Source: Caldilineaceae bacterium (GTDB taxonomy: Bacteria > Chloroflexota > Anaerolineae > Caldilineales > Caldilineaceae). Taken from it: a DNA stretch of 64,000 nucleotides. Numbering within the stretch: position 1 is the stretch's first letter; each line of letters starts with the position of its first letter. The position numbers were made by a program, and so were the translations under genes. Below, piece by piece: positions 4,814-50,894 of the stretch. Below the pieces are notes generated by a model, which worked only from the letters and a program-made list of their open reading frames with translations, was not told the DNA's origin and searched no databases. The stretch spans positions 62,001-126,000 of the forward strand of contig JAJDXQ010000036.1 in NCBI GenBank assembly GCA_022823185.1, given 5' to 3'.

Positions 4814-5078
4814 GTTGGTGTTCCTTGTTTTTTGGGAATGGTAACACAGGGGGAACTGCAACGGCGAACGGCGACGGTGAACGGCAACATCTTTTGAGCC
4901 ACGGAAGGACACGGAGGGGCACGGAGAATGGCAGGGGAAGGGCGCGAGGGCAAGAGCGGCTCTGTGGAATGGGTGGGGGGTTAGCGGAACAGCAGAGATT
5001 ATGCTAGTATGCGGCTGAGATGGGCCTGTTTGGGATGGCCCAAATGTGGACTTTACGGACAATATAGGAGGATTGAAA

Positions 5079-6437
5079 ATGAAGGGGAAGAGTTCGAGGT
5101 CGCTGTCGCGGCGAGCGTTTGTACGATTGGCGACGATGGGCGCCGGCGCGGCGGCGCTGGCGGCGTGCGCGCCTGTGGCGGCGCCGGCAGGAGGCGACGA
5201 CGGAGGAGACGCCGGGATGGCGGAGCCGACGTCGGTAACGTTCCTTACTCAGGGCGGCGGCGAAATCTCGTTTTTGCGATACGAGCCGCTGATTGAGGAT
5301 TTTCAGGCGGCGAATTCGGGCATTACGATTGATCCGATATGGGAGCCGGGCGGCGCGATCGAGATTCAGACGAAGCTGCTGACTTTGATCGCGGCGGGCG
5401 ATGGGCCGGATGCCTATTGGGCGCACAGTTACACGAACTCCGGTCAGGCGGTGCGAAACATCCAGCTGGATATCAACCCGTTTATCGACGCGGACGACGA
5501 CATCAGCGGCGACGACTTTCTGCTGGCGGCGTACAAGGATTTTCAGTACGAGGGCAGGCAGATTGGGTTCCCGCGTGAGACGACGAGCACTGTGATCATC
5601 TACAATGCCGAGTTGTTTGACGCGGCGGGCGCGGCGAGGCCGGGCGACGGCTGGACGTGGGCCGACTTCGCGGAGAGCGCGGCAGCGATCACGCAAGGCG
5701 AAGGGACGGAGCGGGTCTTTGGAACGGCAGACTGGCATCTGAACCGGAACACGTGGATCAAGATGTGGCAGAAGGGCGGCGACGTTTTGAGCGCAGACCG
5801 CACGCAGTTCACGATGAACCAGGAGCCGGGTATTTCGCAGGTGGTTGAGATACAGGGCTGGCATGATGAAGATAGCGGATTTCACGTGCCGGCGACTGTG
5901 CGTGAGGCGGGCGGATTCGGAACGGGTGATCTGTTCACGACGGGCCGGATCGGCATGTTCCCGCAGTTCTCGGTGTTTTCGAATGTGATGAGCTCGGAGT
6001 TTGAGTGGGATATCGCGCATCTTCCGGTGGATGACGACGATACGCAGACGACGCGGGTTGCGTCGGCCGGACACAGTCTTTACAGCGGCACTGAGAATCC
6101 GGATGAGGCGTGGCAGTGGATGAAGTTCCTGGGCGGCGAGAACGCGTTCCGGCACTGGGTGGATGCGACGGGGTTGAATGTGCCGTCGTTGAAGGTGGTG
6201 GCGGAGAATCTGCTGGAGGCGAGCGCGGATGCGCTGCCGCCGAGCGCGCAGATCATGTTGGATGCGTTTGAGTACGGCAGGCCTGAACCTGTTGCCGGTG
6301 ACTGGATTGGCGTGCACCGCGAGGTGCAGCCGGCGCTAAACTCGATCTACGGCATTGAGAAGGCGGATGCGCAGGCGACGCTGGATGCGATTGCGAGTCG
6401 GGTTGAGGAGCTGGCGGTCTACGTGCCAGGTGTGTAG
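5079..6437 (+). CDS. Extracellular sugar-binding protein of CUT1 ABC transporter (Tat lipoprotein)
   Basis: AGGAGG RBS before ATG 5079; SRRAFVRLATMGAGAAALAAC Tat motif plus lipobox; family 1 SBP-like body (ending EELAVYVPGV). Confidence 0.9.
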   Translation: MKGKSSRSLSRRAFVRLATMGAGAAALAACAPVAAPAGGDDGGDAGMAEPTSVTFLTQGGGEISFLRYEPLIEDFQAANSGITIDPIWEPGGAIEIQTKLLTLIAAGDGPDAYWAHSYTNSGQAVRNIQLDINPFIDADDDISGDDFLLAAYKDFQYEGRQIGFPRETTSTVIIYNAELFDAAGAARPGDGWTWADFAESAAAITQGEGTERVFGTADWHLNRNTWIKMWQKGGDVLSADRTQFTMNQEPGISQVVEIQGWHDEDSGFHVPATVREAGGFGTGDLFTTGRIGMFPQFSVFSNVMSSEFEWDIAHLPVDDDDTQTTRVASAGHSLYSGTENPDEAWQWMKFLGGENAFRHWVDATGLNVPSLKVVAENLLEASADALPPSAQIMLDAFEYGRPEPVAGDWIGVHREVQPALNSIYGIEKADAQATLDAIASRVEELAVYVPGV

Positions 6438-6445
6438 CATTTTAC

Positions 6446-6487
6446 CTCGTAGGGTTTAAGGGAGGTGACTCCCTTAAACCCTACGAG
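6446..6487. promoter_or_regulatory. Perfect 19-bp stem / 4-nt (GTGA) loop inverted repeat downstream of SBP gene
   Basis: CTCGTAGGGTTTAAGGGAG-GTGA-CTCCCTTAAACCCTACGAG read directly; starts 9 nt after the SBP stop codon; no T-run. Confidence 0.9.
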
Positions 6488-6517
6488 TAGACCCCGCTTT
6501 GGGTCGGAGCCCAACGT

Positions 6518-6528
6518 AACAACCGAGA
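6518..6528 (+). repeat. Direct repeat copy A (AACAACCGAGA) flanking the ATPase cassette
   Basis: Identical 11-mer at 8801-8811. Confidence 0.6.
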
Positions 6529-6787
6529 TCGAGAGAAAAGAGAGTCATTATTGGATAGTCTGACATCCAGGATCTGATTCCTGACTGTCGTTTGATTGTA
6601 TTTTGCTGGCTTGATCTGCAATATTCCTTGGGGAGGCAAGACGCAACCGGGCGTTCCGATGTGTCGTCTGGCCGCCGCCGAGAAAGCGGCGCAAAAGGGG
6701 AGGGCGATCAGACCTATAGGGATGGCCCAAGTGAATCTTCTACTGTCGCCCGAGCCTCGGTAGTCTCAATTGGGTTGGAGAGTCAGG

Positions 6788-8038
6788 ATGTTTCGAGACA
6801 TATCATTTGTCAACTATCGCACACATCGCGAGTCGTCCATTTCACTACATCCGATTACCCTACTGGTTGGCAATAACAACTCCGGGAAATCGAATATTTT
6901 ACAGGGGCTTCAGCATCTTTCCCGCCTTGTTTGGCGCTCCCATCCAAGGCGCAGTCGTGCCGAACTTTCCAGCGTGCATTGGGGGCCCGACTTTTTTCGC
7001 CATAAATATCGCATGGCAAAAGACGACGAGCCCTTAGCTTGGTCAGTTACTTGGGAAGAAGATGGCGCAAAAGTCAGGTATGAACTAGAGCTCGTTCAGG
7101 TGAAGTCTACGAGAGATTTCGTACGGTGCCGAGAGAGAATTGAGCATATGTGCGGGAGTGGAGCTTGTCACGAGATTGTCAGCGGATACGAAGGGGATTC
7201 AGACCGTCTTGAATTACAAACTAAAGTCGATGGGGACCGGGATATACCGGTGGAGGCCAGGAGGAACCTCAACACTTTTTTTGAAAAGCTAGGCGGCGCG
7301 TTTGCATACCACTTTCAACCCTCTCATCTGAACAACTCGTTAGTTCGAGAGGCCAAGATCGACCCTTACAAAGTGGACGAAATGGTGCGAATTCCCTCCA
7401 AGATCGGCTATGAGGGCGGAAACTTTCAGAGGCTGTTGTTTTATGCAAAGGAGCGCGAAGAGCGAGTGTTTTCGCGCTTTGTCGCTCTCGTCAGACGCTT
7501 CAACGATGACTTTCATAGTGTCCGACTCAATGAAAATGGTATTCCCATCTGGGAGTTTGATTTTGGCTGTGTCAGGTCCGACCGACTCTTGGAAGAATTC
7601 ACTCCTGACTTGCTTTCAGACGGATTTCTCAAAGCTGCCGCGATTGCATTGATGGTATCTTTGGACAGGCCACCATCGATAATCATGCTTGAAGAAATAG
7701 AAAACGGTATTAACCCTGGGAACATTCGTGAAGTGATGCACTGGCTGTGGCAGGCAGCTTCGACCCATCGGGAAATCGGGAGATCGCAATTCCTATTGAC
7801 TTCCCATAGTCCTACAGTTCTGCGGGAGTTCTCTGAAAACCTGGACAGCGTATACACATTGCGCCTGGACAGACCTTCGCACCAGAGCGACGTAAGAAAC
7901 CTCAATGATTCTCTGGAAACCTTAGTCGGGATCGGCGCAGTGGAAGGTGAATTCAGGGACGACGCCGGCGGAAATCGCAAGGTCAAGATTCCACCCTATC
8001 AGTTAACGGAACTCTGGTATTCAGGAACGATAGGGTAA
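6788..8038 (+). CDS. AAA/ABC-type ATPase of the OLD/AAA_21-like class, putative defence protein
   Basis: MFRDISFVNYRTHRESSISLHPITLLVGNNNSGKSNILQGLQ (Walker A), SIIMLEEIENGINPGNIREVMHWL (Walker B-like), FLLTSHSPTVLREF (H-loop). ORF track start 6770; ATG 6788 fits RBS better. Confidence 0.85.
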   Translation: MFRDISFVNYRTHRESSISLHPITLLVGNNNSGKSNILQGLQHLSRLVWRSHPRRSRAELSSVHWGPDFFRHKYRMAKDDEPLAWSVTWEEDGAKVRYELELVQVKSTRDFVRCRERIEHMCGSGACHEIVSGYEGDSDRLELQTKVDGDRDIPVEARRNLNTFFEKLGGAFAYHFQPSHLNNSLVREAKIDPYKVDEMVRIPSKIGYEGGNFQRLLFYAKEREERVFSRFVALVRRFNDDFHSVRLNENGIPIWEFDFGCVRSDRLLEEFTPDLLSDGFLKAAAIALMVSLDRPPSIIMLEEIENGINPGNIREVMHWLWQAASTHREIGRSQFLLTSHSPTVLREFSENLDSVYTLRLDRPSHQSDVRNLNDSLETLVGIGAVEGEFRDDAGGNRKVKIPPYQLTELWYSGTIG

Positions 8039-8044
8039 CAACAC

Positions 8045-8761
8045 ATGCCTTGCAGGATCGGGATTATTGGCGACGGTCCGACTGACCTGAGTATTGTTGG
8101 GCGGCTCGCAGAGTGCGCAGCTACCCTCAATGTGAGCCGTACCCTATCCGTGGAGCTAATCGAGCTCCGTCGTCAGAATCTTCGGGACGCGGTGGACAGA
8201 TACTGGAAGGAAGCGATCCGCTCGGACGATTACAGTGTCACAGGACGGGCCGGCCTGAAGCTACTTGGCGCGGCGTCTGCGATGCTTCATGGCGCCATCA
8301 ACGACTTTGAGAGCAGTCTGCGGGGCGAAGGAGTCTCCTGGAGGGATGTTATCGTCCTTTCCACTGATACAGAGCGACACTTTGCAACTTCTGACAGGTA
8401 CTTTGACGCTTGGGCCACACACATGCCAAAGATCCTGTTGACCGCAGCCGAGAAGACGTGTCATCAACTGATTCAATGGGGACGCGATCCCTCTATTGTT
8501 CCAACCATCGTTCCGTTGCCGCTGTTCCCGTCTTCCGAAACGATTGTGGCGGCGGCAAAGGACAACTTCGGCGCCATTCACGGCTTGCGTCCGGGCGAAT
8601 TGAAGGTGAAGCTATACAACGTAAGAGATCTGAAAATGCTCTCGAGAGAAGAGTTCGAGAGACAGGCAATGGAACCGCTTACCAGGAATTCAATCGAGCA
8701 GATCTTCAGGCTCATTCCCGAGAGCAGACCACTTATCCATGTTCTGCTTCAACGATGGTAA
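8045..8761 (+). CDS. Putative TOPRIM/DUF4276-like partner of the ATPase; function unknown
   Basis: 238 aa; IGIIGDGPTDLSIVGRL start resembles the 'EGxTE' start of DUF4276-type proteins; VIVLSTDTERH acidic motif; 6 nt downstream of the ATPase stop codon. Confidence 0.5.
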   Translation: MPCRIGIIGDGPTDLSIVGRLAECAATLNVSRTLSVELIELRRQNLRDAVDRYWKEAIRSDDYSVTGRAGLKLLGAASAMLHGAINDFESSLRGEGVSWRDVIVLSTDTERHFATSDRYFDAWATHMPKILLTAAEKTCHQLIQWGRDPSIVPTIVPLPLFPSSETIVAAAKDNFGAIHGLRPGELKVKLYNVRDLKMLSREEFERQAMEPLTRNSIEQIFRLIPESRPLIHVLLQRW

Positions 8762-8800
8762 GGGGTATGCGTTTTCCCAAGATTGCTCTCAATCGGGAGG

Positions 8801-8811
8801 AACAACCGAGA
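8801..8811 (+). repeat. Direct repeat copy B (AACAACCGAGA) flanking the ATPase cassette
   Basis: Identical 11-mer at 6518-6528. Confidence 0.6.
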
Positions 8812-8855
8812 ATAGTTTTAGGCTTTCGGTGAGCAGGACATAGAAGGGTTAGGTT

Positions 8856-9767
8856 TTGGCCTCATTGCGAAAAAACTCTCGCCGGCTGCTTTGGACGGAG
8901 GCGAGGGACGGCTATCTGTTCATATTGCCCTGGATACTGGGGTTCATCATTTTCACGGCGGGGCCGATGCTGGCGTCGCTGTATATTTCGTTTACGCGTT
9001 GGGAGATGGTGACGCCTTCGGTGTGGGTGGGCCCGGCGCAGTATGTGAAGCTCTTCAACGATGACAGGTTCTGGCTGAGCCTGTACAATACGAGCTATTA
9101 CGTGTTCATCGGGGTGCCGCTGCATCTCTTCATGGCGCTGCTGGCGGCGCTGGCGGTGAATCTGAATCTGCGGGGCATCCGCTTTTTCCGGACGGCGTAC
9201 TATGTGCCGTCGCTGACGCCTGTGGTGGCCAATTCGATATTGTGGGTGTGGATTTTTCACCCGAATTGGGGGCTGGCGAACGCGTTTTTGCAGTGGATCG
9301 GGTTGGAGGGGCTCTACTGGCTGCAGGATCCGCGGCTGGCGAAACCGGCGCTGATCGTGATGAGCTTCTGGTCGATCGGGGGCCAGATGGTGATCTTGCT
9401 GGCGGGGCTGAAGGGCATACCGGTGGAGTTGTACGAGGCGGCATCGATCGACGGCGCGAACTGGTGGGGGCGTTTCTGGCGGATTACGCTGCCTTTGCTG
9501 ACGCCGGCCCTGTTTTTCAATCTGATTATCGCGATTATCGGGGCGTTTCAGGTGTTTACGCAGGCCTACATCATGACCGAGGGCGGTCCGAACTATTCGA
9601 CTTTATTCTACCTGCTGTATCTGTTCCGGGCGGCATTTGAGAATTTCCGGATGGGCTACGCCTCGGCGATGGCATGGGTCCTGTTTATCATCGTCCTGCT
9701 ATTTACGATTCTGCAGTTTGCGCTGTCGGATCGCTGGGTTTTTTACGAAGGAGACTTGCGCCGCTAG
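8856..9767 (+). CDS. Carbohydrate ABC transporter permease (MalF/UgpA type)
   Basis: 303 aa, TTG start; LYEAASIDGANWWGRFWRITLPLLTPALFFN EAA motif. Confidence 0.92.
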   Translation: MASLRKNSRRLLWTEARDGYLFILPWILGFIIFTAGPMLASLYISFTRWEMVTPSVWVGPAQYVKLFNDDRFWLSLYNTSYYVFIGVPLHLFMALLAALAVNLNLRGIRFFRTAYYVPSLTPVVANSILWVWIFHPNWGLANAFLQWIGLEGLYWLQDPRLAKPALIVMSFWSIGGQMVILLAGLKGIPVELYEAASIDGANWWGRFWRITLPLLTPALFFNLIIAIIGAFQVFTQAYIMTEGGPNYSTLFYLLYLFRAAFENFRMGYASAMAWVLFIIVLLFTILQFALSDRWVFYEGDLRR

Positions 9768-47621: not shown

Positions 47622-48956
47622 TTAGACGAGCGGATCCTTGTCCAGCACCTCCTGGACGAGGAGGTGAGTTTGCTCGACACCCTCTTCAAAGATTACGGCT
47701 TCGGTCCAAATAGCCTGGAGGTTATTGTTCATGGTGTTGACGAATTCGGATGTGCGGGCATTGGCGGGCCGGTGCCACTTGCGCGGGCCTTCAGGGTAGA
47801 TTTCCTGGTGCTGGCGGAAGATGGGATGGATGGAATTGAGCTCATCGCTTTCCCACACGTCCTTGCGTCCACCTGGGCTGCCGGCGCCGAAGAAGACATG
47901 CTCGATGCCGTCTTCCTTGGTGGAGTAGAAGTCCAGGATCTGGAATGCTTCGGAGGGATGCTGGGAGTTGCCGGTGATGCCGAAGGCGGCGGCGGACACC
48001 TGTGAGCCGCGCAGTCCTGTAGGTCCTATGGGCCCGACGACGGCATCCCAGTCGAACTCGAGGTCACCGTCATTCTTCATGTTGTTGAGGCGGCCGATCC
48101 AGCCTGTGGTCGTGTTGAAGATGCCCACGGTTCCGGCAACATAGTTGTTGGCGACCTCGTCGCCACACTGGCAGGGATCGATCCCATGAGTATGCTGCAG
48201 ATCGTAGAGCCAGCGAAGCCCGGCGATGGATTCCTCCTGGTCCAACAAGGAGGTTGTGCCGTCCTCGCTGATGGCATCGCCGCCGAAGATACGGAGGTAT
48301 GAGGGGATGTGCTCCTGGCCGGTGCCAAATGAGCGGACTCCCCAGACTTCGGGCGGGTCGGTGATGGCCTGCCCGATGGTTACGTAGTCGTCGACAGTCC
48401 ATTCAGGGCTTGGGGCCTCGGCGCCTGATTCAGCGATGAGGTCTTTGTTGTGGTAGTAGGCGGTGGTGCCGTAGTGGCCGTGATTAGGGATGGCGTGCAG
48501 CTGCCCGTCAAGGGTTACAGCAGCGAGCAGGGAGTCCCAGAACTCAGAGAGGTCGAAGTCTTTGGCGGCGACGATGTCGTCGAGTGGGACGAGGACGCCC
48601 TTGGCCTTGTGTTCCGGCGGGTTGTTGAGGTATGTCCAGACAACGTCACCGACGGTGCCGGAGGCGGAAAGAGCATAGATCTTGGGGTACATCTCGTTGC
48701 CGGGCAGTTCATCGAATTCGATGACGAGTCCTGGATTCTGCTCTTCGAACAAGTCTTTGCGGCTGATGTGCCAGTCTGCGTGCGTACCCAGGCGTGTGTG
48801 GAAGAGGAGTGTAATCGGCTCTTCCGATGCCATCGAGTCACCTGCGCCATCGTCAGCGGGGGCTCCAGCCGGCACACAAGCGGACAGCGCTAAAGCGCCC
48901 GTTGCTACCAAGCCGCCGGTCAAGAATTGACGCCGACTCACGTGTTGCCTAAGCAT
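47622..48956 (-). CDS. Extracellular sugar-binding protein (Tat lipoprotein), second system
   Basis: MLRQHVSRRQFLTGGLVATGALALSAC; ATG 48956 preferred over ORF track start 49043. Confidence 0.9.
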   Translation of the reverse strand: MLRQHVSRRQFLTGGLVATGALALSACVPAGAPADDGAGDSMASEEPITLLFHTRLGTHADWHISRKDLFEEQNPGLVIEFDELPGNEMYPKIYALSASGTVGDVVWTYLNNPPEHKAKGVLVPLDDIVAAKDFDLSEFWDSLLAAVTLDGQLHAIPNHGHYGTTAYYHNKDLIAESGAEAPSPEWTVDDYVTIGQAITDPPEVWGVRSFGTGQEHIPSYLRIFGGDAISEDGTTSLLDQEESIAGLRWLYDLQHTHGIDPCQCGDEVANNYVAGTVGIFNTTTGWIGRLNNMKNDGDLEFDWDAVVGPIGPTGLRGSQVSAAAFGITGNSQHPSEAFQILDFYSTKEDGIEHVFFGAGSPGGRKDVWESDELNSIHPIFRQHQEIYPEGPRKWHRPANARTSEFVNTMNNNLQAIWTEAVIFEEGVEQTHLLVQEVLDKDPLV

Positions 48957-49017
48957 TGATCGTTCCTCCTTTAGGAATGCAGCGGAAAAGAATACAGGAA
49001 AATAGCCAGGGAAATGT

Positions 49018-49944
49018 TCATCCTTTGATACCGGACATGACAATGCCCTGAACGAGGTAGCGTTGCGCCAGGAAAAACATGATGATGATCGGCGCGGTCA
49101 TCATCACGCTTGCCGCCATCAGGAGATGGTATTTCGGCTCGGTGTCATCGGCAAAGCCGGCAACCGCCTGAAAGTATCGAATGCCGATGGCCAAGGTGTA
49201 CTTCGACTTGGTATTGAGGAAGATAAATGGCTGAAGAAACTCGTTCCACTGCGACATGAATGTCAGCACGGCCGCCGTTGCGGTAACTGGGATGGAAAGC
49301 GGCATCAGAATCTGCCAGAAGATGCGGAGGTAGTTTGCCCCGTCTATGCGGGCAGCTTCATCCAAGTCGATTGGGATACTCATAAAGAACTGACGCATGA
49401 GGAAGATCAGGAAGGCGCTGCCTCCGAAGAACGAAGGGACGATAAGTGGTCTGTAAGAGTCCAGCCAACCAATTTCAGCAAACATCAGATATAGGGGAAT
49501 CAATGTTACTTCTACAGGAAGCATCATGGTGCTGAGCGTAAGGATAAACAGCACGTCGCGCGCAGGGTACCGGAAACGTGCGAAAGAGTAGCCGACGAGA
49601 GCGGCAGTGAGAACAGCGCCGAAGGTTGAGACGACGGCCACGAATGTCGAATTCCAAGTCCAGGTGGCCCAAGGTACGATTTCAAATACGGTGGGATAGT
49701 TTTGGAATTGCGGGATTTCCGGAAGCCAAGTGGGGGGAAATCGAAACAGCTCCCCTCCACGTTTCAGCGAGGAGAGAACCGTCCAAACAAAGGGGAACAT
49801 GAAGACGGCGGAGCTGGATACAGCGATCAGATATAGAATGCCGCGGCCAAAGGCGCGCTGAAATGAGGCTGACTGAAATGCGCCGACAGGTATGAATCCT
49901 CCTCCCGCCTGCTTGCGGTTGCGTGTAATTACTTCTCCTGCCAT
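49018..49944 (-). CDS. Carbohydrate ABC transporter permease (MalG type)
   Basis: MAGEVITRNRKQAGGG start at 49944; DLDEAARIDGANYLRIFWQILMPLSIPV. Confidence 0.92.
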   Translation of the reverse strand: MAGEVITRNRKQAGGGFIPVGAFQSASFQRAFGRGILYLIAVSSSAVFMFPFVWTVLSSLKRGGELFRFPPTWLPEIPQFQNYPTVFEIVPWATWTWNSTFVAVVSTFGAVLTAALVGYSFARFRYPARDVLFILTLSTMMLPVEVTLIPLYLMFAEIGWLDSYRPLIVPSFFGGSAFLIFLMRQFFMSIPIDLDEAARIDGANYLRIFWQILMPLSIPVTATAAVLTFMSQWNEFLQPFIFLNTKSKYTLAIGIRYFQAVAGFADDTEPKYHLLMAASVMMTAPIIIMFFLAQRYLVQGIVMSGIKG

Positions 49945-50894
49945 CAGTCCACCTCCCCCGCGTAGTATACCCAGCGCCGCGACTGCCTGAACTGAACATA
50001 GGTGAAGACGAATAAGACGAAGAAAAAGATCCATGCAAGTGCCGAGGCGTAGCCCATTTCAAAGTACTGGAAAGCTCGTGTGTAAATGTGCAGTGCATAG
50101 AACCAGGTAGAGTATGCTGGCCCGCCCTGGGTAGCGACGTAGGCGGCGGCAAATACTCTCAATGCGCCGATGATGCCAAGAACCATGTTGAAGAAGATTG
50201 TCGGGGTAAGCATCGGTAGGGTCACGTTGCGGAATTTGGCCCAGATTCCGGCGCCGTCCACGACGGCGGCGTCGTAGAGTTCTTGGGGAACACCCTGGAG
50301 GCCGGCCAGAAAGATCAACATGGTATTGCCGCCGATGGCGCCCCACATGGCCATAATGATGAGGCCGGTCATGGCCCAATCGGGGTCGCGGAACCAGCCG
50401 GGCGCGTTATCGCTGCCGGTGATGGTGCGAATCCAGTGGTTGATGGGGCCCACGTCGGCATTAAAGATCCAACCCCAAAGGACGGCGGCAGCGACAATCG
50501 GGGTCAGATGGGGCAGGAAGAAGAAGGTACGAAACCAAGTCGTTCCTAACAGGGCCTGGTTCAGGAGCATTGCCGCGGCGAGAGCGCCGATAAGCGAAAG
50601 CGGGACGACGATCAGTGCGTATCGGAAGGTGAGCATCATCGAGGGCCAGAAGAGGCGGTCTTTCGTGAAAATCTCGATGAAGTTTTTGAGGCCGACAAAT
50701 TCGGGCGGGTTGACGATGTCGTAGCGGGTGAAGCTGAGGAAGCCGGAGGTCATCATTGGACCGACGATGAAGAGAATGATACCAAGCAACCAGGGCGACA
50801 GGAATATGTAGCCGGCGATCGCTTCCTTGGCGCGCAGGTTGGTCATCCACCGGGGAAGCGAACTCCGCGTGCTCGTCATCGCCTCGGTACTCAT
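49944..50894 (-). CDS. Carbohydrate ABC transporter permease (MalF type)
   Basis: 316 aa; ELYDAAVVDGAGIWAKFRNVTLPMLTPTIFFN. Confidence 0.92.
   Translation of the reverse strand: MSTEAMTSTRSSLPRWMTNLRAKEAIAGYIFLSPWLLGIILFIVGPMMTSGFLSFTRYDIVNPPEFVGLKNFIEIFTKDRLFWPSMMLTFRYALIVVPLSLIGALAAAMLLNQALLGTTWFRTFFFLPHLTPIVAAAVLWGWIFNADVGPINHWIRTITGSDNAPGWFRDPDWAMTGLIIMAMWGAIGGNTMLIFLAGLQGVPQELYDAAVVDGAGIWAKFRNVTLPMLTPTIFFNMVLGIIGALRVFAAAYVATQGGPAYSTWFYALHIYTRAFQYFEMGYASALAWIFFFVLFVFTYVQFRQSRRWVYYAGEVD

Follow-up and report, generated by a model that had tools for sequence, protein, structure and literature searches.

A two-gene cassette of an ABC-type ATPase and a TOPRIM-like effector candidate inserted in a sugar transporter operon of a Caldilineaceae bacterium

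In the genome of a bacterium of the Caldilineaceae, phylum Chloroflexota, a sugar ABC transporter operon is interrupted by two genes coding for an ABC-type ATPase and a 238-aa partner protein, and on balance we read this cassette as a horizontally acquired two-gene immunity module, probably directed against phages or other mobile elements, in which a sensor ATPase would work together with a TOPRIM-like nuclease. The window (the whole stretch of 64,000 nucleotides that was analysed) carries all features discussed here on its forward strand. The gene of the substrate-binding protein (SBP) of the transporter (5046-6437; SBP_bac_8 4.5e-23, SBP_bac_1 1.3e-20), a host gene with orthologues in 14 other genomes of the same genus, lies on the left of the cassette. 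It is followed by the ATPase gene (416 aa; 6788-8038, the best start being the ATG at 6788 and the stop ending at 8038), by the partner gene (8045-8761) after a gap of 6 bp, and by the host gene of the first of two permeases (8856-9767; BPD_transp_1 5.9e-16), whose first few codons are unlike those of relatives that lack the cassette. Both open reading frames, their motifs and the flanking transporter genes were found where a preliminary description of this DNA had placed them, and the lower GC content noted there was confirmed as well (0.494 for the ATPase gene and 0.545 for the partner gene, compared with 0.618 for the SBP gene). The 1-kb segments of lowest GC content in the whole 64 kb fall in the cassette (0.49, against a mean of 0.610 and sd of 0.031); the second-lowest region, at 48751-50250 (about 0.53), holds an SBP/permease cluster of the ordinary kind. 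No known defence genes were seen among the neighbours examined in the window, an Rfam search of the cassette for structured RNA gave a sub-threshold match only, and a promoter/terminator scan returned no more signals than were obtained in shuffled sequences.

The insertion was examined by comparing the window genome (G000) with others of its genus, 17 same-genus genomes in all, within a wider set from the bacterial family (G000-G045); genomes of this kind are presumably of sponge origin. The orthologous permease was present in 15 of the 17 same-genus genomes, with 89-100% aa identity, and in 13 of these 15 the junction was empty, the SBP gene being followed directly by the permease gene after a spacer of 84-345 bp. 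The pair occupied the junction in G000 and G008 only. The empty sites included those of the closest relatives (94.5% and 92.6% nt), and similarity to them ended with the stop codon of the SBP gene (6437) and resumed around 8870, meaning that a segment at 6438-8870 (right edge approximate) stands in place of the short spacer of the 13 empty relatives. This comparison supports the insertion and horizontal acquisition of the cassette, and the earlier proposal that it had entered the transporter operon was borne out by it. It is highly improbable that the pair regulates or serves the surrounding sugar transporter: although it runs in the direction of the operon in both genomes that carry it, the same transporter is kept without it in 13 relatives, and all other members of the cassette family adjoin unrelated genes.

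G008 belongs to another clade of the genus, and its pair (contig C7, 6183-8147; L038), which occupies the same junction between SBP and permease genes, is a divergent one. The two cassettes share 65% aa identity in the ATPase and 48% in the partner, and as DNA only a part of the ATPase gene can be aligned (70%), the spacers not at all, whereas for the host proteins the identity is 87-93%. A tree built from the host genes on either side placed G000 with G014 and G013, and G008 with G006 and G011, all four of these companions having empty junctions. Since the G008 pair is both divergent and found in another clade, the simplest history suggested is that this junction was entered twice, independently. 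A single ancestral insertion in the genus followed by many losses is possible, in our view as the less probable course of events; it would explain why the two genomes agree in junction, gene order and orientation, but it fits poorly with their separation among empty sister genomes, with cassettes that are more diverged than the host genes and barely alignable as DNA, and with the empty spacers, in which we noticed no convincing cassette remnant, only a 13-nt match. The SBP-permease junction may be a recurrent landing site.

The preliminary description had also interpreted an 11-bp repeat as a target-site duplication or recombination scar. The identical 11-mer AACAACCGAGA is indeed present at 6518-6528 (left copy) and 8801-8811 (right copy), as exact matches and with no other copy in the window. 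A target-site duplication would have left a single copy at the empty sites; this reading fails because AACAACCGAGA was found in none of the 13 empty loci and because both copies fall inside the replaced segment, which extends from the stop codon of the SBP gene as far as about 8870, and not at its boundaries. When the two flanks were shuffled by dinucleotides, words of 11 or more bases in common turned up in 43 of 5000 trials (0.9%), and they did so in 45 of 1230 placements of the same geometry elsewhere in the window (3.7%); the flanks of the G008 cassette had no common repeat longer than 7 bp. The repeat is probably due to chance. The cassette lies downstream of a perfect hairpin with 18-nt arms and a 6-nt loop (6446-6487, a self inverted match over 42 nt), directly 3' of the SBP stop, which is probably a terminator or attenuator of the SBP mRNA. 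In empty relatives with short spacers (loci L034-L047 were compared) hairpins also follow the SBP stop, with sequences that differ between clades; these post-SBP hairpins are likely an element setting the ratio of SBP and permease expression.

The ATPase has a Walker A motif (GNNNSGKSN), a signature-like motif (LSDGFLKAAA), a Walker B motif (IIMLEEIE) and an H-loop (LTSHS), and it matched the AAA_21 profile (1.1e-24) as well as RecF and SMC profiles. Its model (pLDDT 80) resembled the heads of Rad50, SMC and PtuA in Foldseek searches, at E of about 1e-11 to 1e-13. There is no fused TOPRIM domain, the protein ending at residue 416 in a short tail with the conserved sequence ELWYSGTIG. The PADLOC matches of the ATPase (AriA, HEC-01A, PDC-M07A, MAD3, AbiLi and others) all belong to a single broad superfamily, and the best-scoring AriA model (PDLC02980, 6.8e-28) has 304 positions and corresponds in length and region to the generic AAA_21 match, thus being unspecific; for these reasons the ATPase cannot name the system.

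In the partner, three motifs were recognized: IGIIGDGPTD (motif I, residues 5-14), VIVLSTDTE (motif II, residues 102-110) and FPSSE (motif III, residues 161-165), which in the family take the acidic forms GDGxTD, TDxE and FPSxE. Among the 15 aligned partners G11, D14, D101, D108, E110, F161, P162 and E165, together with other residues, were invariant, and the D10 and D108-x-E110 positions were kept in 15 of 15 if exchanges of D and E are allowed (the D10 position is E in L063); these are not the canonical TOPRIM letters. The partner of the window had no match in Pfam, PADLOC or PHROGs, and comparison with NCBIfam and PDB returned only CsgG, at noise level (E 0.14 and 0.6). The AF2 model of the partner is of the alpha/beta type (pLDDT 86.3, pTM 0.85), with strands predicted at residues 4-8, 37-40, 102-108 and 154-160 and the acidic residues placed at strand ends.

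A weak resemblance was found to PDC-M31B of PADLOC, which matched 10 of the 15 partners (best E 0.0012) and not the partner of the window. Several of the PDC-M31B-type proteins that we retrieved follow an ATPase whose tail resembles that of the cassette ATPase, and they carry EGxTD, DxD and a later E. In a joint alignment D10-G11-T13-D14, D101, D108-x-E110 and E165 fall on the PDC-M31B motif columns, most cassette members having D for E in motif I and DxE for DxD in motif II, and a deep Deltaproteobacterial member retaining the canonical E in motif I (REGFSD). HHalign comparison of the partner with PDC-M31B was significant over motif I only (P 1.2e-4, probability 55%); a forced global alignment reached a probability of 5%. 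On the basis of the motif order and the weak PDC-M31B match, a divergent TOPRIM-like domain is the best reading of the partner that its sequence suggests. Of the earlier proposal of an ATPase paired with a TOPRIM-like protein, the two-gene cassette and its placement in the broad ATPase/TOPRIM kind of defence system held. Foldseek with the confident partner model found nothing at E<=1e-3 in the PDB or among viral models, so that structure did not confirm the TOPRIM fold.

The first relatives of the cassette were found on a Planktothrix plasmid, and further ones by means of the ATPase alignment, which identified 20 loci in the genome contigs; a scan of the contigs with the single partner sequence gave no relatives. 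The members are mostly cyanobacterial, with one Desulfobacterales and one Deltaproteobacteria genome in addition, and the pair is rare (2 of 46 genomes of the bacterial family, 2 of 396 in the class of the window genome, and 11 of 386 sampled Cyanobacteria). One copy is plasmid-borne, and there were no relatives in IMG/VR or phage records. Two of the 20 loci, the distant L066 (6310-6876) and L067 (10275-10844) of Vicinamibacteria, were not counted as members: there a 189-aa protein with VLVVPEDPILNGHIL, perhaps another small TOPRIM-like partner, follows a distant ATPase (23% identity). At every family locus examined an ATPase with an ELWYSGTIG-like tail is located directly upstream of the partner, and the pairing is obligate. 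Both genes show signs of purifying selection in their codon-position differences (second against third positions, 0.18 vs 0.68 for the ATPase and 0.27 vs 0.65 for the partner), and copies that look broken were seen at L056, L058, L062 and L118. The neighbours differ at most of the family sites, the pair being in most cases an isolated one with unrelated genes around it.

On plasmid p1 of Planktothrix pseudagardhii (L003, 1841-12675) the order of genes is HmaA, ATPase, partner, HmaB, a 194-aa protein and HmaC. The flanking genes matched HmaA (4.4e-157), HmaB (5.3e-127) and, downstream, HmaC (7.3e-119); the 194-aa protein had no Pfam or PADLOC match. Defence candidates have been drawn, in published work, from genes that lie within Hma systems, and antiviral activity was found for several of them (PMC12988326). 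In Anabaena lutea (L054, 1397-3534) a HEC-01A/HEC-01B pair (2e-103 and 1.2e-23) was found about 5 kb from the family copy. This distribution bears on a quite unlikely alternative, in which the cassette would be an accessory pair for DNA repair or recombination of the RecF/Rad50 type, the ATPase binding DNA ends and the partner processing them. The RecF and SMC profile matches of the ATPase and its closest solved folds (heads of Rad50, SMC and PtuA) agree with such a role; however, the pair is absent from about 97% of the sampled cyanobacterial genomes and from nearly all relatives, close kin have empty sites, one copy sits inside the Hma system and several genomes hold broken copies.

For the favoured reading as an immunity module, a mechanism can be proposed by analogy with PARIS, in which a hexamer of the AriA ATPase holds AriB and, when phage proteins are sensed, AriB is freed as a tRNA-cleaving TOPRIM dimer (PMC12409363). 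It is from this analogy that we assign the sensing and holding role to the ATPase and the cutting role to the partner. The Rad50/PtuA-like ABC ATPase would be sensor and keeper at once, and its conserved tail ELWYSGTIG may serve as a docking site for the partner. A product of the invader, once sensed, would cause the ATPase to set the partner free or to activate it. The partner would be a metal-dependent TOPRIM-like nuclease using the carboxylates D10, D108-x-E110 and E165; cleavage of nucleic acid (tRNA or DNA) would then stop the infection, in the manner of AriA and AriB in PARIS. What the data show are the pair itself, its insertion and its obligate character, the conserved motifs of the ATPase and the acidic ones of the partner, the traces of purifying selection and the single Hma-embedded relative; the TOPRIM fold, the nuclease activity, the trigger, the formation of a complex and the immunity itself are what we infer here. 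Alternatively, the cassette may be a toxin-antitoxin or selfish pair, in which the ATPase restrains the partner, a toxic nuclease, and which is kept for addiction rather than immunity. The layout of two genes with a 6-bp gap, the mobile pattern, the stand-alone position at most sites and the plasmid-borne Planktothrix copy would suit such a pair, but an ABC ATPase whose active site is complete exceeds the needs of an antitoxin and the Hma-embedded copy points to defence; we consider this alternative unlikely, if somewhat less so than a repair function. The two ideas overlap in PARIS-like systems.

Pairs of an ATPase and a TOPRIM-like protein form a large and mostly uncharacterised class of bacterial immunity. 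The immunity module proposed here adds to it a family whose partner escapes Pfam and NCBIfam and is scarcely covered by PADLOC, and the clear comparison of empty and occupied sites, together with the natural Hma-embedded copy, makes it a compact candidate that lends itself to testing. With their changed residues, the acidic motifs of the partner would be a test of the extent to which TOPRIM chemistry is able to drift. We tentatively put forward a bolder proposal: the partner might be the founding member of an effector family not yet described (GDGxTD / TDxE / FPSxE), whose catalytic residues are TOPRIM-like but altered and whose chemistry or target could thus be new, and in this genus the junction between SBP and permease genes might be a preferred landing site that has taken divergent cassettes at least twice.

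The statement made earlier that the subtype is not assignable was supported, in that the cassette could not be assigned to PARIS, AbiL, RloB or DUF4276. The cassette is similar to OLD and to GajA of Gabija in that an ABC ATPase head at the N-terminus goes together with TOPRIM-type chemistry, putative in our case; these were rejected on account of the separate genes for ATPase and partner, the lack of a C-terminal TOPRIM domain and the next gene, which is not a helicase (no GajB). RloA/RloB was set aside with no RloB match of the partner. The ATPase fold recalls PtuA of Septu, which was among the top Foldseek matches, and Septu was rejected in turn, the partner being not HNH and having no HNH/PtuB match. 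HEC-01/DUF4276 likewise consists of an AAA_21 ATPase (HEC-01A matched ours at 1e-21) and a small partner, and is an Hma-embedded candidate, as is one relative of the cassette; the partner had no match to DUF4276 or HEC-01B up to E 10, with hhalign probabilities of 0.1% against the DUF4276 profile and 1% against the HEC-01B protein, and its profile comparison with DUF4276 proteins of the same bacterial family was negative. DUF4276 proteins occur in 29 of the 46 genomes of the bacterial family, with 1-8 matches per genome in the genus of the window. By eye, the SDGSSD and HRDAE motifs of the Anabaena lutea HEC-01 pair resemble those of the partner; the profile comparison was not significant.

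PARIS itself was rejected as an assignment, with no AriB, DUF4435 or TOPRIM model matching any of the 15 partners in searches of Pfam and PADLOC up to E 10. The cassette nevertheless resembles it in the separation of an ABC ATPase from a TOPRIM effector, putative in our case, and in the proposed logic of sensor and effector (PMC12409363). The cassette is nearest to PDC-M31, an unvalidated PADLOC candidate (PDC-M31A/PDC-M31B), with membership not demonstrable: the partner of the window has no PDC-M31B match, its relatives match at about E 1e-3, and the rest of the protein gives no significant alignment. PDC-M31B had no matches in the phylum of the window genome. PDC-M31A matched the ATPase at 4.6e-10, a score exceeded by many other AAA_21-type models. 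In both, an ABC ATPase is followed by a partner of about 225-240 aa, the acidic motifs come in the same order (EGxTD / DxD / E in PDC-M31B and GDGxTD / TDxE / E in the cassette family), and the tails of the ATPases are alike (LSRLWVMGHLGG in PDC-M31 and LTELWYSGTIG in the cassette family).
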